Source of the DNA: Segniliparus rugosus ATCC BAA-974
GTDB lineage: Bacteria > Actinomycetota > Actinomycetes > Mycobacteriales > Mycobacteriaceae
DNA length: 64,000 nucleotides
Assembly (NCBI RefSeq): GCF_000185725.2
Contig: NZ_KI391953.1
Coordinates: 682,001 to 746,000, forward strand
Direction: 5' to 3'
In this document: piece after piece, positions 6,448-59,229 of the stretch
Numbering within the stretch: the first letter of the stretch is position 1
Layout of the letters: every line of letters starts with the position of its first letter
The notes under the pieces: model-generated
The model's database searches: none
The model's input: the letters and a program-made list of their open reading frames with translations, nothing else
Told to the model about the DNA's origin: nothing
Position numbers and translations under genes: made by a program

Positions 6448-7821
6448 TCACCGGTGGCTCAGCGCCCGATACGTGGAGCGTTGGAACCGCCCCGAGGGCT
6501 GGAATCGGGCGAGGAGGGCTTCGAGGTCTTCGCCGGCGGCCTTCGCGACGAACGCCCGCCATCCTTCCGGCCGCTCGAAGTCGAGGACCGGGCGAGGGTC
6601 GGAGAGCAGTCCGAACGCGGCCCCCGCGACATCGGGCTGGACTTGCGCCGAGCCGAAGATCGCCCCGCTGGCCTCGGCGTAGTCGGGGTCGCCGAGGTAG
6701 AGCCGGGTGACCTCGTACGCGGCCCGGATCCGGTCGGCGTAGAACTGCTCGAACTTGGCCGCGAGCCACTCGCCGTCGAACGGGCCATCGTGCTTGGCCG
6801 CCTCGCGCACCAGGAACGCCGCTTGCAGAAGCCCGGTCTGCGCGCCTTGCCCGGCGATAGGGTCGTATGCGACGGCGGCGTCGCCGAGCGCGGCGACCGC
6901 GTGCCCGCTCGCGGTCCGCCCGACCCCCTGGCGCACGAGCGGGGTGATGGCTCCCGAGAGCCATGACCGAGGGTCGTCCTCGATCGGGCGGAGCGCCTCG
7001 GCTTCCGGCAGGTCCCAATCCAGGTAGTCGCGGTGCAGGTCGAGCAGGGTCTGATGCGCTTGGGCGAGGTTCGTCGGGGCTGCGAAGCGCCGCTCCCATT
7101 CGCTGCCCGGTTTGCCCCACGCCAGGAACGCCCAGGAAGGCCCCGCGTCTTTGTGCAGGTAAGGGCCCCACCACGCTTCGCCCTGGTCGGTGACGAAGGA
7201 GTACGCGCTGTGCTGGCCGCCGGAGGAGCCTCGGTGCGCGAAGATTTCCGGCCCGTAGCCGAGCCCGGTCAGGGTCACGGTGAACACCCGCCGTTGCGGG
7301 CGGTCGTACGCGGTGCGGCCGGGGTCGACGGGGAAGAGGCTGGCGAGCCCGTCTCGTCCGGTCGCGACCAGGACGAGGCCGTAGTCGCCCGCGAGCTCGT
7401 CCAGCCTGGCCGGGTCCACCTTCTCCACCCGGAACTCGCCGCCGATGTCGAGGAAGGAAGTGATCCGGTCGTCCGCCTTCAGGCGCGTGTCCACCGCGAC
7501 CGCGACGAATCCGGGGAACGGCGCATCGAAGGCGAGCTGCTCCGGGCGATCCGGCAGAGTCCCGTCGACCAGCCGCACGCTTTGCCCGGTGATGATCGGG
7601 GCTTTGTCCAGATAGCTGTCGAGGCCGAGCTCCCGTTCCGCCTCGATGGACCGCCCGAAGAGCGCCGCGGTGCCGGAGGCTGGCACGTCGGCGCGCAGCG
7701 AGCGCTGGTCGCGCTCGCTGACCAGGGTGGTGTCGAATCCGGCGCGCTGCAAGCCGTATGCGACGGAGGCTCCGGTCTGGCCTGCGCCGATGACGAGTGC
7801 GGTGCGAGTGGGCTGAGGCAT
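6448..7821 (-). CDS. StyA-like FAD-dependent monooxygenase (styrene/indole type)
   Basis: 457-residue flavoprotein. The N-terminus has the Rossmann motif GAGQTGASVAYGLQ (residues ~12-25). YGLVLVATGRDGL, RPQRRVF and GDAAVAYDPIAGQGAQ align well with the corresponding blocks of styrene monooxygenase StyA, including the FAD-binding GD-x8-P-x-x-GQGAN-type motif. StyA epoxidises aryl alkenes or indole using FADH2 supplied by reductase StyB. No styB-like gene lies nearby, so the flavin reductase must come from elsewhere. It sits 44 bp downstream of ectD on the same strand and may be cotranscribed with the ectoine operon, though no role there is known. Confidence 0.75.
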   Translation of the reverse strand: MPQPTRTALVIGAGQTGASVAYGLQRAGFDTTLVSERDQRSLRADVPASGTAALFGRSIEAERELGLDSYLDKAPIITGQSVRLVDGTLPDRPEQLAFDAPFPGFVAVAVDTRLKADDRITSFLDIGGEFRVEKVDPARLDELAGDYGLVLVATGRDGLASLFPVDPGRTAYDRPQRRVFTVTLTGLGYGPEIFAHRGSSGGQHSAYSFVTDQGEAWWGPYLHKDAGPSWAFLAWGKPGSEWERRFAAPTNLAQAHQTLLDLHRDYLDWDLPEAEALRPIEDDPRSWLSGAITPLVRQGVGRTASGHAVAALGDAAVAYDPIAGQGAQTGLLQAAFLVREAAKHDGPFDGEWLAAKFEQFYADRIRAAYEVTRLYLGDPDYAEASGAIFGSAQVQPDVAGAAFGLLSDPRPVLDFERPEGWRAFVAKAAGEDLEALLARFQPSGRFQRSTYRALSHR

Positions 7822-52164: not shown

Positions 52165-52809
52165 ATGGCAGAAGTCGGGGCGGAAGAAGGGCCGGTCGAC
52201 AGCAGGCGTGTCGTGTTCGCGCTGATGCGGCGGCGGATCGCCGTTGCCTCGGTCGGCGCCCTCGTTCTGGCCTGCGGGGTCGTCGGCTCTGGCTTCTGGG
52301 TGCTTTTCGAGTTCGACGAGGGTTTGCGGCCGCATCATATGTCGCCGGAGCAGGTGCGGACTTTCGAGGACCGTTTCCGAAGGCAGGGGACATATGAGGA
52401 AGACCAGCGCGAATTCCAAGCCTTCATGGCAAAGACTGCTGACGAGATCGTGCGGATCGGGGGTTCGCCATGGTCGTGGCGTCGGACGGCGGTGCTGGAG
52501 GCTTGCGATGAGGAGGGGGACCGCGAAGCGGACACCAGGGTGAGGAAGATGTCGACGGACCAAATTCTGTTCGTTGACCCTGTTCCGGACCGGTTGTGGG
52601 CGAAGGCGCTCGATATTGTGCGCGAGTCGGCGAAGCAGCGAGGGATGACGAGTTCCCGCGCGGTGTTCGATCGGCCAGGCGACCGCTCTGCCTGGTTCGG
52701 CTCCTCGAACGGGGAAACGCTCGAATTGGCCAGCGGCTTCCTTGTCGGGTCGACAGCGCGCAGGTTGGACGAGCCGCGCGATCGGCAGGTCGCGCGGACT
52801 GCGAGGTAG
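52165..52809 (+). CDS. LppA-like anchored protein
   Basis: 214 residues. An N-terminal hydrophobic segment (VASVGALVLACGVVGSGFWVLF, ~25-46) preceded by RRR contains a lipobox-like VLAC, so it is either lipidated or simply membrane-anchored. The outer domain has the order seen in mycobacterial LppA proteins: GSPWSWRRT..CDEEG, DPVPDRLWAKALDIVRESAKQRGM, FDRPGDRSAWFGSSNGETLELASG. Function of LppA is unknown. Confidence 0.6.
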   Translation: MAEVGAEEGPVDSRRVVFALMRRRIAVASVGALVLACGVVGSGFWVLFEFDEGLRPHHMSPEQVRTFEDRFRRQGTYEEDQREFQAFMAKTADEIVRIGGSPWSWRRTAVLEACDEEGDREADTRVRKMSTDQILFVDPVPDRLWAKALDIVRESAKQRGMTSSRAVFDRPGDRSAWFGSSNGETLELASGFLVGSTARRLDEPRDRQVARTAR

Positions 52810-52818
52810 GCTCGGGCG

Positions 52819-53514
52819 GTGCCTTACGCCGAAGACCCGCAGGGGAAGAAGGGGAAACGGAAGCTCTGGTCGTTTCCTTATGTCGCGGCGATCGCGGCAG
52901 TGGTCTGCACGGTCCTGTTGTGCGCGGGCGGTTGTTACCTGCTCGGCCGGTTGGGCAGCCAGTTGGACCCGAACTACACCAGGCCGGAGGAGGTGGCCGC
53001 GCACGAGGCCGCGTTGCGCGCGGGGGGACCGGCGGAGCGGGACGCGCAGCGGGTGGAGGCGGCCCTGGCCCGCGCGGCGGATTCGGCTGTGGCGGCGTAT
53101 CCGGGGTTGTCCTGGCGGTGGGGGGACGAGGCTCCTGGGGATTCGACCTGCGATCCGTACAACATGTTCCACCAGGTCAAGCCGCTGCAGATGGTGTTGC
53201 GCCACGTCCTGTTCGATGGGGAGCTGACGGACAAGGCGCGAGAGGGCGTCGTCGCCGCGCTCAAGACACAGGCGGAGGGGTTGGGGATAGCGGGGGAAGA
53301 GGGGTTCGCCGACAGCTACGGCAGGGCGTGGACGACGTTCTCGCGGGGCGCGGACAGCGCTTCGCTCCGGCTCGTCTCGGGCCGGGCGACGGTGGGCGAG
53401 CCGGACGACCTGATCGCGAAGGAGCATGCGGCGGCGGTGGTCGAGGGCCGTTCCGCGTGCTTGTTCCCGCAGCGGTATTTCACGGAGAACCACTTGCCGG
53501 TGCCGACGGAATAA
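52819..53514 (+). CDS. Hypothetical membrane-anchored protein
   Basis: 231 residues, GTG start at 52819. Basic N-terminus, one membrane helix (FPYVAAIAAVVCTVLLCAGGCYLLG), then an extracellular part with YPGLSWRWGDEAPGDSTCD and a single later Cys near the end (SACLFPQRYF). Overall plan (anchor, W-rich motif, globular alpha/beta region) loosely resembles the preceding LppA-like protein, nine bp upstream, but I cannot align them with confidence. Function unknown. Confidence 0.6.
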   Translation: MPYAEDPQGKKGKRKLWSFPYVAAIAAVVCTVLLCAGGCYLLGRLGSQLDPNYTRPEEVAAHEAALRAGGPAERDAQRVEAALARAADSAVAAYPGLSWRWGDEAPGDSTCDPYNMFHQVKPLQMVLRHVLFDGELTDKAREGVVAALKTQAEGLGIAGEEGFADSYGRAWTTFSRGADSASLRLVSGRATVGEPDDLIAKEHAAAVVEGRSACLFPQRYFTENHLPVPTE

Positions 53515-53602: not shown

Positions 53603-53626
53603 TCACAATGTGATACCCTGGGTATC
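53603..53626 (+). promoter_or_regulatory. Two overlapping palindromes upstream of the oxygenation operon
   Basis: TCACA-A-TGTGA (53603-53613) overlaps by two bases GATACCC-T-GGGTATC (53612-53626), both perfect. They lie 42-65 bp before the ATG at 53668, the usual place for a repressor operator. No regulator gene is adjacent, so the regulator must be encoded elsewhere. Confidence 0.6.
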
Positions 53627-53667
53627 GCTAACTTGCTAGCACTCGAAAACGGATCAGGAGAGATGTG

Positions 53668-54600
53668 ATGGGCCATCAAACGCTGGCCGGGGAACGAGCA
53701 TCGACACAAGACCCCCAGACGCGCCCCGCGGACGCCGGGCGGATCGCGCTGCACGCGCGAAACGTCGAGTTCGACTTCTCGAACTCGCCCTTGCAGTGGA
53801 TTCCCGGCGAGCTCGTGGTGTCGCACGTGCTCTCGGCGCTGCACATGATGCTGCCCGCGGGCGAAATGATGTTCGTGGACACGTTCGGCCGCGCCCTGCC
53901 CCACATCCAGGACGAGCGCTTGCGCGAGGACGTCATCGGCTTCATCGGGCAGGAGCAGATCCATGCGAACAGCCACGACCACGCGCTGCACGCGTTTTTC
54001 TCCCAGCACGGCATCGACCTGAGCGTGTTCGCGCAGTACTCGGAACAGCTGTTCGCGCAGTACAAGGAGCGGATGGACAAGCTGCCGGCGAAGCTGCAGC
54101 GGCGCATCCTTGTGGAGAGCCTCGCGATGATCGCGGGCATCGAGCATCTCACCGCCACGGCGGGGGATTGGCTGCTGAACCAGGACTTCGAGAAGTTCGG
54201 GGCCGACCCGGTCCTCACCGACCTGTTCCGCTGGCACGGAGCGGAGGAGGTCGAGCACCGTAGCGTGGCCTGGGAGGTCGCCCGCTATTTCGGAGTCGGG
54301 CGCAAGCGCCTGATCGGCTACTACCTCGCCGCGTGTTTGACCATCCCGCTCGGACTGATCTACGGCGGTTTGCTGATCGCCCGCGCCGACGCCTCGGCCC
54401 CCAATGTCGGATTCCTCCGGTGGACGCGCGAGGTGGGCCGGGCGATGAAGCGGGGCTCGCTGGTGAGCTTCGCCGTGATGGGCGAGGCGTTCAAGGCGTA
54501 CCTGCGCCCCGACTTCACGCCCGAGTCCATCGGCGACACGGCGCAAGCGGTCGCCTACCTCGCGAAGTCGCCAGCGGCGAAGGCCGCCGCCCGCGCATGA
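53668..54600 (+). CDS. PF10118-type 'metal-dependent hydrolase'; probable diiron oxygenase
   Basis: 310 residues from the ATG at 53668 (AGGAG seven bases upstream; GTG 53665 is too close). The family is annotated as metal-dependent hydrolase, but the visible metal pattern is that of a four-helix diiron protein: E66 in PAGEMMFVD, E96-x-x-H99 in GQEQIHANSHDH, E159 in AGIEHLT, and E194-x-x-H197 in GAEEVEHRSVAWEV. Intervals of 30, 63 and 35 residues match methane monooxygenase MmoX (E114, E144/H147, E209, E243/H246: 30, 65, 34). One amphipathic or membrane stretch follows (~215-235). Its stop overlaps the start of a reductase gene, which would supply electrons. Oxygenase, epoxidase or desaturase activity is an inference. 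Confidence 0.75.
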   Translation: MGHQTLAGERASTQDPQTRPADAGRIALHARNVEFDFSNSPLQWIPGELVVSHVLSALHMMLPAGEMMFVDTFGRALPHIQDERLREDVIGFIGQEQIHANSHDHALHAFFSQHGIDLSVFAQYSEQLFAQYKERMDKLPAKLQRRILVESLAMIAGIEHLTATAGDWLLNQDFEKFGADPVLTDLFRWHGAEEVEHRSVAWEVARYFGVGRKRLIGYYLAACLTIPLGLIYGGLLIARADASAPNVGFLRWTREVGRAMKRGSLVSFAVMGEAFKAYLRPDFTPESIGDTAQAVAYLAKSPAAKAAARA

Positions 54601-55724
54601 CGAGGCCGCACCCCTCGCCCCCGCCCGTCCCGAGCGGCCTCGACGACATCATGCGCCGGATGCAGCAGCGCATGCCGACGCTGTTGAAGCTACAGGACAG
54701 CGTGACGCACGGCGTGCTGCGGCTCGCGGCGATGGTCGGCGCGCCGCCGCCCGACCCGCAGCCGGTGGACCGGGCGCTCCGCCTCGTGGTGCGCGGCCGG
54801 ACCGTGGTGGCCGCCGACGAGAACGTGGTGAGCCTTCAGCTCGCCCAGCAGGACGGCGGGGAGCTGCCCAGCTGGCGCAGCGGGGCGCATCTCGACCTCA
54901 CGTTGCCGTCCGGCGCGGTGCGGCAGTACTCGTTGTGCGGCGACCCGCGCGACCGCCGCTCGTACCGGATCGCGGTGCGGCGCATCCCCGACGGCAACGG
55001 CGGCTCGGTCGAGCTGCACGACGCGGTGCGCGTGGGCGACGTCCTTGAGGTCCACGGGCCGCGCAACGCCTTCCCGCTCGCCACGGCGGGGCATCTGAAC
55101 ACCGAGCGGCGCGAGTTCCGGTTCATCGCGGGCGGCATCGGGATCACCCCGATCCTGCCGATGCTCGCGACCGCCACGGACCTCGGGCTGCCATGGACGA
55201 TGATCTATGCGGGCCGCAGCAAGGAGTCGATCCCGTTCCGGGAAGAGCTGGCCCAGTACGGGGACCGGGTCGTCATCCGGACCGACGACGAGTCCGGGCT
55301 GCCCACGGCGGCGGATTTGCTGCCGCAATTGCACTCGGATTTGGCCGTGTACTGCTGCGGGCCGGGGCCGATGCTCAAGGTCGTCCGCGAGGCCGTCGCC
55401 GGATACCCCGGCGCGGAACTGCACTTCGAGCGGTTCTCCGCGCCGCCTGTCGAGGACGGCGTGCCGTTCGAGGTGGAGCTGGCCAGCGACGGCACGACGC
55501 TCGCCGTGCCCGCCGACCGCAGCGCGTTGGAGACCATCCTCGCGGCGAGGCCGGGCATCACGTACTCCTGCAAGCAGGGCTTCTGCGGGACGTGCAAAGT
55601 GCGCGTGCTCGGCGGCGAGCCCGACCATCGCGACGCCACGTTGACCGAAGCCCAGCGGGCGAAGGGGGAGATGCTGATCTGCGTCTCCCGCGCCAATGGG
55701 GGTCGGCTGGTGCTGGACCTGTGA
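54597..55724 (+). CDS. PDR/VanB-type flavin and 2Fe-2S oxidoreductase
   Basis: 375 residues, ATG overlapping the previous stop (ATGA). After ~65 variable residues comes the ferredoxin-reductase module: LPSGAVRQYSLCGDPRDRRSYRIAV (RxYS flavin site), FIAGGIGITPILPML and YCCGPGPML (NAD ribose/nicotinamide site). A plant-type 2Fe-2S domain closes it: CKQGFCGTCKVRVLGG ... ICVSRA supplies the four Cys. It carries electrons from NAD(P)H to an oxygenase; the translationally coupled diiron-like protein is the obvious partner. Confidence 0.88.
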   Translation: MTRPHPSPPPVPSGLDDIMRRMQQRMPTLLKLQDSVTHGVLRLAAMVGAPPPDPQPVDRALRLVVRGRTVVAADENVVSLQLAQQDGGELPSWRSGAHLDLTLPSGAVRQYSLCGDPRDRRSYRIAVRRIPDGNGGSVELHDAVRVGDVLEVHGPRNAFPLATAGHLNTERREFRFIAGGIGITPILPMLATATDLGLPWTMIYAGRSKESIPFREELAQYGDRVVIRTDDESGLPTAADLLPQLHSDLAVYCCGPGPMLKVVREAVAGYPGAELHFERFSAPPVEDGVPFEVELASDGTTLAVPADRSALETILAARPGITYSCKQGFCGTCKVRVLGGEPDHRDATLTEAQRAKGEMLICVSRANGGRLVLDL

Positions 55725-55798
55725 ACCAAGGAGAACAAGAGGCAATGGCGGAACAGCCCCGACGACAGAGAACCAGAAGACGCGCGAATGGAGCGAGC

Positions 55799-57637
55799 AT
55801 GACCAACCAGACCAAGCCCGAGGCCGCGGCGGCCAAGGGCGACTTCGCCGCGATCACCGAGCACGTGGTGCGCAACGGCGACATCGACGTGACGTATTTC
55901 GTGCAGGGCAACCCCGAGGGGGAGACGATCCTGCTGGTGCACGGCTGGCCCGACTCGCACCACCTATGGGACAACGTGACGCCGCTGCTGCGAGACCGGT
56001 TCCGCCTGGTGGCGGTCGATAACCGGGGGGTCGGGAAGACGACCAACCCCAAGAGCTTCCGGGATTTCCGGCTCACCGCGATGGCCAGCGACTACGTCGC
56101 CGTCGCGAACGCGGTCAGCCCGGCGAAGCCGGTGCACGTCCTCGGCCATGACTGGGGCAGCGTCGCGGCGTGGGAGGCGATCTGCGACCCGGAGCTCGAA
56201 CACCGGTTCGCGTCGTTCACCTCGGTGTCCGGGCCGTGCTTGAGCCATATGAGCAAGTGGGTGCGCTCGCGGTTCTCCCGTCCGACCCCCAAGAACGTGG
56301 CATTGGCGCTCGGACAGGCCGGGTCAGTCCTCTACACGCTGTTCTCGATGACTCCCGGTGTGCCGAACGCGCTCCTGAAACTGACGATGACCGCGGAGCG
56401 TTGGCGCAACGGGCTCTCGCTCGGCGAGGGCGCGCCGGTCGAGCGGATCCACCTCAGCCCCACGTTCAAGCAGGACATCACCCGGACGCTGCGGGTCTAC
56501 CGCGCCAACGTGTTCCCCGCCCTCCTGCACCCGCAGGAGCGCTACACGAACGTCCCGGTCCAGGTCATCGTCGGGAAGAACGACCCGGCGGTGCGCCAGT
56601 CCTGCTACGACGACGAGCCGCTCTGGAACAAGCGGACTTGGCGGCGGGTGCTCAATGGGGGCCACTGGCTGCCGTTCTCGCATCCGGAGGCTCTCGCCGC
56701 CGCGACGGTCGAATTGATCGACGCGGTGGGCGGCGGCGAGCCCGCCCGCGCGCTGCGCCGCGCCGAGATGGGCAAGGACCGCAAGCCGTTCGAGGACCAG
56801 CTCGTGGTCATCACCGGCGGCGGCAGCGGCATCGGCAGGGAGACCGCGCGGGAGTTCGCCCGGCTCGGGGCCGAGGTCGTGCTCTCGGACATCAACCTGG
56901 TCAGCGCCAAGGAGACCGTGGTGATGATCGAGGAGGAGGGCGGAGTCGCGCACGCCTACCAGCTCAACGTCGCCGACGAGGAGGCGATCAACGCCCACGC
57001 CGAGGAGGTGCACGCCAACCACGGGGTGCCCGACGTGCTGGTCAACAACGCGGGCGTCGGGGCCGCGGGCGACTTCCTGCAGACACCCACCGAGGAGTTC
57101 AAGCGGATCATCGACATCAACCTGTACGGCGTGGTGAACGGCAGCCGGGCCTTCGGGGCCAAGATGGCCGAGCGCGGCCTCGGCGGGCATATCGTCAACC
57201 TGTCGAGCATGGCCGCGTACTCGCCGCAGAAGCAGTTCTCCGCGTACTCGACCAGCAAGTCGGCGGTCTTCATGTTCTCCGACTGCCTGCGCGCGGATCT
57301 GGCCGCGCACAACATCGGCGTGACCACGATCTGCCCCGGCGTCGTGCACACCAACATCATCGCGACGAGCAAGATCTCCGGCGTGAGCGCCGAAGAGGAG
57401 CGCCGGATGCAGGAGGTCGGCGACAAGGCGTACGCGATGCGCCGCTACGGGCCCGAGAAGGTCGCCCGGCAGATCGTGCGCTCGGTCCAGAAGAACAAGC
57501 AGGTCGTCCCGGTGACCCCGGAGGCGTACGTGCAGTACCTCAACTACCGGATGGCTCCAGGCTTGACCAGGTACTTCGCCGCCAAGGGCGGTATGCTCGA
57601 CCTGATGAAGCTGGTGCCGAAGAAGAAAGAAAGCTGA
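55799..57637 (+). CDS. ephD: EphD-type alpha/beta hydrolase - short-chain dehydrogenase fusion
   Basis: 612 residues from the ATG at 55799 (GGAG six bases upstream); ATG 55745 is an in-frame alternative adding 18 residues. Domain 1 is an epoxide-hydrolase-like alpha/beta hydrolase: oxyanion motif HGWP 48-51, nucleophile Asp118 in GHDWGS, His289 in GGHW. Domain 2 is a classical SDR: TGGGSGIG 339-346, NNAG 416-419, Ser470, Tyr483 and Lys487. Same two-domain plan as M. tuberculosis EphD (Rv2214c), reported to act on oxygenated mycolates. It could open an epoxide and then oxidise the resulting alcohol. Confidence 0.9.
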   Translation: MTNQTKPEAAAAKGDFAAITEHVVRNGDIDVTYFVQGNPEGETILLVHGWPDSHHLWDNVTPLLRDRFRLVAVDNRGVGKTTNPKSFRDFRLTAMASDYVAVANAVSPAKPVHVLGHDWGSVAAWEAICDPELEHRFASFTSVSGPCLSHMSKWVRSRFSRPTPKNVALALGQAGSVLYTLFSMTPGVPNALLKLTMTAERWRNGLSLGEGAPVERIHLSPTFKQDITRTLRVYRANVFPALLHPQERYTNVPVQVIVGKNDPAVRQSCYDDEPLWNKRTWRRVLNGGHWLPFSHPEALAAATVELIDAVGGGEPARALRRAEMGKDRKPFEDQLVVITGGGSGIGRETAREFARLGAEVVLSDINLVSAKETVVMIEEEGGVAHAYQLNVADEEAINAHAEEVHANHGVPDVLVNNAGVGAAGDFLQTPTEEFKRIIDINLYGVVNGSRAFGAKMAERGLGGHIVNLSSMAAYSPQKQFSAYSTSKSAVFMFSDCLRADLAAHNIGVTTICPGVVHTNIIATSKISGVSAEEERRMQEVGDKAYAMRRYGPEKVARQIVRSVQKNKQVVPVTPEAYVQYLNYRMAPGLTRYFAAKGGMLDLMKLVPKKKES

Positions 57638-59229
57638 TGACAGCGGTTTCCGAAGGAGCCGCCGCCTCCGGCGGCTCCTTGGTCGCCTACCAGGATTTGG
57701 AGCAGCCCGATCTTGCCGCGGTCGTCATCGGGGCGGGGTTCTCCGGCCTGGCGACCGGCAACCGGCTGCGGGAGCAGGGGGTCGAGAACTTCCTGATCCT
57801 GGAGAAGGCCGCCGGGGTCGGCGGGACGTGGTGGCAGAACACCTATCCGGGCGTCGAGGTGGACATCCCTTCGATGGTGTACTCGTTCGCCGAGGCCCCC
57901 AACCCGAACTGGTCCCGGATGTTCGCGCCCGGCAGCGAGCTGCGGCAATACGCGCAGGACTGCGCCGACCGGTTCGGGCTCAAGGACAAGCTGCGGCTGG
58001 GCACCGAGGTGCGCGCGATCGTGTTCGACGAGGTCAACGACCTCTGGCGGGTGCGGGCGGTGGACGCGGACGGCGAATTCGAGCTCACCGCCCGGTTCGT
58101 CGTCTCCTGCCACGGCGCGCTGAGCACGCCGGCCGCCCCCGCTCTCGCGGGGCTGGACTCCTTCGCGGGAAAGACGATCTTCTCGCAGGCATGGGACCAC
58201 GACTACTCGCTGCGGGGCAAGCGGGTCGCGGTGGTCGGCACCGGGGCGACGGGGATCCAGATCATCCCGGCAATCGCGGACGAGGTGGCGCGCCTGACGG
58301 TGTTCCAGCGCACCCCCTCCTACGTGAGCCCGAAGACGAACCTGCCGGTGCCCGCGCTCTTCCAGCGGGCGCTGCGGCACGCCCCCTTCCTCTCCAGGCT
58401 CATCCGGTTCGGCGGCGTGACGGCCGTCGACGTCGGGCAGACCCTCGGCGTGGTCTACCACAAGCAGTTCCCGTTCGTCGCCAAGCTCGCGGGCGCGGCC
58501 GTGCGGGCGAGCATGCGGGCCCGGATCAAGGACCCCGAGCTGCGCGAGAAGCTCATCCCCCGATACGGCTTCGCGTGCAAGCGGCCCGGCTCCTCCGCCG
58601 ACTACCTTGAGACGTTCGCCCGTCCGAACGTGGACTTGGTCGTCGCCCCCATCGCCAGGGTCGTGCCCGAGGGGGTCGAGACCGCCGACGGGACGCTGCA
58701 CCGCATCGACACGCTGGTGCTCGCCACGGGGTTCAAGGTGTTCGACCTCCCGTACACGGTGCGCGGCAGGGAAGGCCAGGACCTCGGCGAGTACTGGGAG
58801 GCCAACCGCATGCGCGCCTACCAGGGCGTCGCCGTGCCGGGGTTCCCGAACTACTTCCTCGCCCCCGGCCCGTACGGCGTGGTCGGGTTCAACTGGTTCG
58901 ACACCATCAAACTGTGCACCGGCCACGCCGCCGAGATGATCGCCGACACGCTGACCCGGCAGGCGACGCGGGTGGAAGTCGGCCAAGAGGCGTTCGACCA
59001 GTTTTTCGCGAAGGCCGTCGCCGCGACCGAGAACCTGGTGTTCAAGAGCCCGAGCTGCGCCGGGTCGCACAGCTATTACATCAACAAGGACGGCGACACC
59101 CCGTTCCTGCGGCCGTTCGCGATCGCGCACTCGAACGCGATGATGCGCTCCGCGCGCAAGGCCTACGTGCAGTCGCGCAGATACCCGGACGTGGACGGGC
59201 GCATGATCGTCTACCCCGAGTCCGTCTGA
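57637..59229 (+). CDS. Flavin-containing / Baeyer-Villiger-type monooxygenase
   Basis: 530 residues; ATG overlaps the ephD stop by one base. FAD motif GAGFSGLATG (~32-41), GGTWWQNTYPGVEVDIPS, and NADPH motif GTGATGIQ (201-208). The Baeyer-Villiger fingerprint F-x-G-x3-H-x3-W-(P/D) is present at 176-187 as FAGKTIFSQAWD, with Phe182 where His is expected. Related enzymes insert oxygen next to a ketone to give an ester, or oxygenate N or S. As last gene of the operon it would act on the ketone produced by the SDR domain. Confidence 0.88.
   Translation: MTAVSEGAAASGGSLVAYQDLEQPDLAAVVIGAGFSGLATGNRLREQGVENFLILEKAAGVGGTWWQNTYPGVEVDIPSMVYSFAEAPNPNWSRMFAPGSELRQYAQDCADRFGLKDKLRLGTEVRAIVFDEVNDLWRVRAVDADGEFELTARFVVSCHGALSTPAAPALAGLDSFAGKTIFSQAWDHDYSLRGKRVAVVGTGATGIQIIPAIADEVARLTVFQRTPSYVSPKTNLPVPALFQRALRHAPFLSRLIRFGGVTAVDVGQTLGVVYHKQFPFVAKLAGAAVRASMRARIKDPELREKLIPRYGFACKRPGSSADYLETFARPNVDLVVAPIARVVPEGVETADGTLHRIDTLVLATGFKVFDLPYTVRGREGQDLGEYWEANRMRAYQGVAVPGFPNYFLAPGPYGVVGFNWFDTIKLCTGHAAEMIADTLTRQATRVEVGQEAFDQFFAKAVAATENLVFKSPSCAGSHSYYINKDGDTPFLRPFAIAHSNAMMRSARKAYVQSRRYPDVDGRMIVYPESV

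Follow-up and report, generated by a model that had tools for sequence, protein, structure and literature searches.

A recurrent four-gene oxidation module of Segniliparus rugosus with a probable diiron oxygenase from the hydrolase-labelled family PF10118

The mymA operon of Mycobacterium tuberculosis (Rv3083-Rv3089), in which a Baeyer-Villiger monooxygenase (BVMO), a short-chain dehydrogenase/reductase (SDR) and an alpha/beta hydrolase lie with lipid genes, is linked to mycolate and envelope lipids. Mycobacterial EphD, a fusion of an epoxide hydrolase and an SDR, cleaves 9,10-cis-epoxystearic acid and affects epoxymycolates; it is the only fusion of this type known to hydrolyse fatty or mycolic epoxides, and for most mycobacterial epoxide hydrolases the native substrate is described as unknown (PMC7998700). 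Among diiron enzymes, the AurF-like DnfA, which has a set of seven ligands, is partnered by the FNR/2Fe-2S reductase DnfB (PMC9478400), and CylC-type halogenases carry the motifs ExxQExxH and HxxDExxH (PMC12871659), with a Gln preceding the Glu of ExxH where AurF has Asp135 (PMC12101540). Type I BVMOs are marked by the BVMO1 motif together with FxGx3Hx3W[PD], a motif that can be degenerate (PMC9044951). With these systems we compared an operon of four genes in a window of 64,000 nucleotides (C1:682001-746000) from the 3.59 Mb genome of Segniliparus rugosus. Segniliparus is a lung-associated actinobacterium. The genes of the operon, denoted g1 to g4, are as follows.

53668-54600, plus strand: g1, a PF10118 protein of 310 residues, with an ATG start and an alternative GTG start at 53665.
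54597-55724, plus strand: g2, a ferredoxin-type reductase of 375 residues with flavin adenine dinucleotide (FAD), NAD(P)H and [2Fe-2S] domains.
55799-57637, plus strand: g3, an EphD-type fusion of 612 residues, with an epoxide hydrolase (about 1-325) and an SDR (about 330-600).
57637-59229, plus strand: g4, a class B flavin monooxygenase of 530 residues, of the CHMO/PAMO type.

The four genes form a real and recurrent actinobacterial oxidation module, of which the first enzyme is mislabelled and the fourth is unusual. A preliminary description of this DNA had presented them as coupled genes on one strand, and the open reading frame list and the sequence bear this out, since g1 and g2 overlap by ATGA, g2 and g3 are separated by 74 bp, and g3 and g4 overlap by TGATG. 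The GC content at third codon positions is uniform, at 0.91-0.95. The span first assigned to the operon, 53603-59229, was right in its gene set and its end, while its start lies 65 bp 5' of g1 in non-coding DNA. In one other genus (g10), nine genomes contain the four families in a single cluster, so that the co-occurrence for which a neighbourhood check had been proposed does exist. In the neighbourhoods read among relatives, a g1-like gene adjoined the closest g2-type reductases in 40/40 cases, and a reductase lay directly downstream of g1 relatives in 77 of the 80 named loci. Considering these pairings together with the nine genomes of the second genus, the association of the four genes exceeds chance.

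Three g1-g2 pairs are present in this genome, and based on this number and on the 40/40 and 77/80 pairings, g1 and g2 clearly form one system. In Pfam, g2 contains FAD_binding_6, NAD_binding_1 and Fer2 domains, and its motifs RQYSL (109), GGIGITP (179) and CKQGFCGTC (325), with a fourth Cys in ICVSR (361), confirm the flavin/2Fe-2S reductase that had been assigned to the second gene. We therefore presume that g2 is the electron donor of g1, to which it would pass electrons.

To g1 itself Pfam assigns PF10118 (200 bits; cut-off 33), and this family is labelled 'predicted metal-dependent hydrolase'. In alignments of 34 and 49 sequences, E66, Q95, E96, H99, E159, H190, E193, E194 and H197 were invariant. 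They include a seven-ligand set of three His and four carboxylates, namely E66, E96xxH99, E159, and H190 with E194 and H197, and at the level of motifs the diiron ligands noticed earlier in the first protein are thus upheld. An AlphaFold2 model calculated from the 49-sequence alignment (predicted local distance difference test score 92, predicted template modelling score 0.88) presented a ferritin-like four-helix bundle, in which helices 58-79, 83-112, 141-171 and 181-207 carry the invariant residues. Its neighbours in the PDB were R2, R2lox, AurF, CmlI, the MMO hydroxylase and acyl-ACP desaturase; nearly all of the top matches were dimetal carboxylate bundles with Z-scores of 11-13, and AurF (Z 11.8, 16-17% identity) had the top identity among the 50 matches listed. 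Because Z-scores of 11-13 are not exceptional for helical bundles, the diiron case rests on the ligands. When the model was searched by Foldseek against a viral library, most matches were ribonucleotide reductase-like bundles and no match was significant, and comparison of g1 with solved structures by single sequence or by profile gave no meaningful match. The annotation as a metal-dependent hydrolase was rejected, as it is contradicted by the all-helical ferritin-like model, by the redox-type diiron ligands and by the near-constant pairing with a reductase in the clade. The ligands and the model point to a diiron metal site, and very probably g1 is a diiron oxygenase served by g2, a reductase dedicated to it. 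A hydrophobic helix of 29 residues follows at about 212-240 (19-residue hydropathy 2.07 at residue 220), of which the stretch 220-238 is kept in most relatives; in the model it suggests contact with a membrane or with lipid.

The enzymes with the most similar active site are the nitrogen oxygenases AurF, CmlI and DnfA and the halogenases CylC and NocO, and g1 might itself be one or the other. In an alignment of 23 proteins drawn from the AurF family, the order of the ligands, E83, (D/E)E114xxH117, E166 and H194xxE197E198xxH201, matched that of g1, and when g1 was aligned with PF11583 by hhalign both motifs were in register, without the alignment being significant (probability 2.8%, P 0.016). 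These seven AurF-type ligands, together with Gln95 as in CylC-type halogenases, speak for such an activity. However, g1 reads F92-I-G-Q95-E96-Q-I-H99, where the invariant Phe92 breaks ExxQExxH, and H190-G-A-E193-E194-V-E-H197, where an invariant Glu in place of Asp breaks HxxDExxH. Furthermore, the neighbouring enzymes belong to oxygen chemistry, and in the cited literature EphD-type operons are not described for CylC-type halogenases or for AurF. Nitrogen oxidation or halogenation by g1 thus seems very unlikely. The preferred reading is that g1 would work like an AurF/CylC-type diiron enzyme, as its ligands and predicted fold suggest, and we claim membership of neither family for it. Elsewhere in this 3.6 Mb genome there are about 15 PF10118 genes, four of them in tandem at C2:1295663-1299322, one at C2:1310613 near an SDR gene and a flavin monooxygenase-like gene, and one at C2:1027988-1028763 that appears split. 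The genome also encodes five AurF-family (PF11583) proteins, at C1:124779, C1:199747, C1:1065453, C1:1066706 and C2:148284, two of which are in tandem.

The third gene was expected to encode an epoxide hydrolase-SDR fusion, and this is confirmed by its best NCBIfam model, the SDR-fusion equivalog NF004514 (812 bits; cut-off 455), and by both sets of catalytic motifs. In the alpha/beta hydrolase domain these are HGWP (48), GHDWGS (116, with the Asp nucleophile), VYRAN (233, with a lid Tyr), GKNDP (259, with the acid) and GGHW (287, with the His), and in the adh_short domain they are TGGGSGIG (339), NNAG, LSSM (468, with the Ser) and YSTSK (483). The best PDB match of the hydrolase half is an epoxide hydrolase (7e-19). 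The NCBIfam equivalog for this fusion architecture that g3 matches, PRK05855, is a model which we take to cover EphD. When 151 genomes of the family were searched with g3 and the best 30 loci were read, 17 had the g1-g2 pair beside the EphD-type fusion, on its strand and no more than 1.5 kb away, and among the 80 named loci EphD-type hydrolases were the commonest recognised partner of g1-g2 after the reductase. Mycobacterium sp. D16Q13 has the closest relative, with identities of 78-83% for g3, 63% for g1 and 66% for g2. At its locus (L087, 3681-14372), a g1-like gene, a BVMO gene, two SDR genes, g1, g2, the EphD-type fusion and a further BVMO gene are clustered, and a TetR-like gene lies upstream. 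S. rugosus has a second EphD-type fusion at C2:183605-185329, 51% identical to g3, which is possibly the true EphD orthologue.

The fourth enzyme, g4, is a flavin monooxygenase-like protein whose best PDB match is the Thermocrispum CHMO (8e-74). It has the two Rossmann motifs GAGFSG (32) and GTGATG (201), which agree with GxGxx[GA], and a BVMO1 motif, GGTWWQNTYPGVEVD at 62, which agrees with [GA]GxWx4[FY]P[GM]x3D, and it keeps the catalytic Asp and the active-site Arg. Its BVMO2 motif, FAGKTIFSQAWD, is degenerate relative to FxGx3Hx3W[PD], with Phe in place of His. Comparing this position among 30 homologues, including g4, we found Phe in g4, Leu, Arg or Ala in the next 13 proteins, and His in the following 16. 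Eleven of the 14 His-less proteins, g4 included, adjoin a g1-g2 pair or a remnant of one, and the other three all belong to genus g15. The assignment of the fourth gene as Baeyer-Villiger type is consequently upheld in part: BVMO1, the Arg and the homology to CHMO speak for it, while the loss of the fingerprint His in g4 and its closest relatives weakens the Baeyer-Villiger step. Considering that the BVMO motif is known to degenerate (PMC9044951), such activity of g4 is possible.

A Baeyer-Villiger step would also fit subterminal oxidation, in which g1 would hydroxylate a saturated chain (an alkane or a fatty acid), the SDR would give the ketone, g4 the ester, and a hydrolase would cleave it, so that the epoxide-hydrolase half of g3 would not be the key activity. 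A route of this kind has been proposed for long-chain alkanes in Thalassolituus, and a BVMO and an esterase are induced on the n-C28 alkane (PMC6304351). A second kind of cluster, in which g1-g2 is accompanied by a BVMO and an SDR with no EphD-type fusion (L071, L074-L077, L081, L082 and L084-L086), is in line with it. However, in the hydrolase half of g3 the nucleophile is the Asp of epoxide hydrolases and not an esterase Ser, the operon is without a Ser esterase, and the frequency of EphD-type hydrolases beside g1-g2 argues the same way. We regard subterminal oxidation as rather unlikely, and take opening of an epoxide by g3 as the working reading.

The order of the genes differs between lineages. 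It is 1-2-3-4 in S. rugosus and 3-1-2-4 in genus g10, while Gordonia and Saccharopolyspora share 3-1-2 and the majority of Nocardia loci show 1-2-3. The proposal in the preliminary description that gene order matches reaction order was therefore abandoned. In locus L199 of genome G080 (6606-6910), the g1 orthologue lacks residues 43-217, which comprise the whole metal site, while g2, g4 and g3 remain, the g3 gene being divergent. By its sequence, this g1 appears to be a naturally broken oxygenase.

The preliminary description had also named mycolic acid as a possible substrate, and in that case the operon would add oxygen functions to meromycolate chains. Streptomyces and Saccharopolyspora are genera without mycolates, and yet the g1-g2 pair is common in the former and the 3-1-2 genes are present in the latter. 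S. rotundus lacks the operon, as we found no close g4 there and no EphD-type fusion linked to g1-g2; an EphD-type fusion 47% identical to g3 (L234) occurs there with no g1-g2 pair within 1.5 kb. According to the literature, for cultures in which the operon may not have been induced, both Segniliparus species have non-oxygenated alpha-mycolates only; the 65 Segniliparus mycolates all contained three oxygens, and nuclear magnetic resonance revealed no oxygenated meromycolate (PMC3375245). In favour of mycolates, their cis double bonds are abundant in Segniliparus and could be substrates (PMC3375245), and overexpression of EphD shifts epoxymycolates in M. smegmatis (PMC7998700). Since the Segniliparus mycolates are non-oxygenated, S. 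rotundus is without the operon, and mycolate-free Saccharopolyspora has the 3-1-2 genes, the action of EphD on epoxymycolates leaves mycolic acid as a weak candidate, and tailoring of mycolates by the operon is highly improbable.

The substrate is probably an unsaturated fatty lipid, and cell-wall mycolic acids are not meant in particular. Three observations make a lipid likely: EphD takes fatty epoxides, g1 has a hydrophobic helix, and a wax ester synthase/diacylglycerol acyltransferase (WS/DGAT) and an alpha/beta hydrolase lie near the g1-g2 pair in seven loci, of which the one that was checked, L094, is from Nocardia brasiliensis. The module might instead oxidise and open exogenous olefins or terpenes for detoxification or xenobiotic use. 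Epoxide hydrolases and BVMOs often serve catabolism or detoxification, and the patchy distribution, including the absence from S. rotundus, fits an accessory function. However, acyl lipids are indicated by the hydrophobic helix and by the neighbouring WS/DGAT and lipase-like genes, and we consider a role in detoxification improbable. Over tailoring of mycolates we favour a role in the catabolism or remodelling of some general unsaturated lipid.

Taken all together, we propose with roughly even confidence that the operon is a lipid-oxidising module consisting of diiron oxygenation, EphD-type opening and oxidation, and an optional g4 step. NAD(P)H would supply electrons, which the FAD and 2Fe-2S centres in g2 would relay to g1. 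With O2, g1 would then convert a C=C bond to an epoxide, or else hydroxylate a C-H bond, in an acyl lipid that is long-chain and probably unsaturated. The epoxide would be opened to a vicinal diol by the hydrolase half of g3, and the SDR half would oxidise one hydroxyl to give a hydroxyketone. As an optional late step present only in some lineages, g4 may insert oxygen beside the ketone, leading to cleavage of the chain. We infer that the reaction is epoxidation and not hydroxylation, that the substrate is a lipid and that the steps follow in this order, and likewise the diiron nature of the metal site and the electron transfer.

Several points weigh against this reading. No PF10118 protein with tested function was found, and the literature gave only unrelated work for PF10118 and nothing for COG3687 or for the operon. 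The Foldseek E-values of the g1 model were 0.037 at best. The profile homology between g1 and AurF was not significant, with one of five shuffled controls scoring higher (P to 0.004), and the link to AurF therefore rests on fold and motif. Instead of epoxidation, g1 could catalyse hydroxylation, desaturation or nitrogen oxidation. Most g1-g2 pairs are without an EphD-type neighbour, as the fusion was present in 20 and a hydrolase alone in 13 of the 80 named loci, and g4 is without the BVMO2 His.

A wider reading is more doubtful. PF10118 might be another branch of the seven-ligand diiron enzymes of the AurF/CylC type, in which g1-g2 would make the epoxide for EphD-type fusions and, with a His-less g4, would constitute a previously undescribed route of oxidative cleavage for unsaturated lipids, through epoxide, diol, hydroxyketone and oxygen insertion to two fragments. 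We hold this only tentatively. If it is true, a widespread family labelled as hydrolases would in reality consist of oxygenases with an unusual active site, and g1-g2 would be a testable candidate source of epoxide for EphD-type enzymes, to which the pair is adjacent in 17 of the 30 loci.

One further feature lies in the non-coding DNA upstream of g1.

53612..53626, no strand: perfect palindrome GATACCCTGGGTATC, about 40 bp 5' of the g1 ATG, a candidate operator.

The pattern GATACCYNRGGTATC had a single exact match, this palindrome, across the 3.59 Mb genome, and the reversed-pattern control had 0. The palindrome was not conserved 5' of the orthologous operons, where 3 loosely similar sites were found in 2.09 Mb of loci, and an operator common to these operons was rejected because it is absent from their upstream regions. 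Owing to this lack of conservation, its role as an operator or control site is only a suggestion from the sequence. TetR-type regulators adjoin the g1-g2 pair in Streptomyces, and none is adjacent to the operon in this window. Scans of the locus for sigma-70 promoters and terminators gave no signal above chance. Two LppA-like proteins are encoded upstream of the operon, and a heavy-metal P-type ATPase lies downstream on the opposite strand; these flanking genes are outside the module. The tandem LppA-family (PF16708) proteins, at 52165-52809 and 52819-53514, are found here in Segniliparus, so the description of PF16708 as a 'lipoprotein confined to pathogenic Mycobacterium' is too narrow.

Compared with known systems, g1 shares with AurF, CmlI and DnfA (PF11583) a four-helix bundle and the ligands E, (x)ExxH, E and HxxEExxH, and DnfA, like g1, has a partner reductase (DnfB) with FAD, NAD and 2Fe-2S domains. 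In contrast with g1, these proteins have different neighbours and their known members act on nitrogen; they show no significant sequence or profile similarity to g1, and the second-sphere Asp135 of AurF corresponds to Gln95. The halogenases CylC and NocO resemble g1 in QExxH with its otherwise unusual Gln and in HxxDExxH, which is near HxxEExxH of g1, and CylC acts on an acyl chain. However, their motifs are not exactly shared, as g1 has Phe92 and Glu193, and g1 adjoins its own reductase gene. EphD of M. tuberculosis (Rv2214c; MSMEG_4280 in M. smegmatis) is the same epoxide hydrolase-SDR fusion as g3, whereas the operon of g3 also encodes the probable diiron oxygenase and its reductase, and the genome of g3 has the second, 51% identical fusion. 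The mymA operon likewise brings a BVMO, an SDR and an alpha/beta hydrolase together, but its esterase and dehydrogenases are separate, and to our knowledge it contains neither a PF10118 protein nor a 2Fe-2S reductase. Finally, the type I BVMOs CHMO, PAMO, MymA and EthA have two Rossmann motifs, BVMO1 and the Asp/Arg dyad in common with g4, and differ from g4 and its 13 closest homologues, in which the BVMO2 His is replaced by F, L, R or A, so that strict motif-based mining would miss members of this BVMO-like clade.

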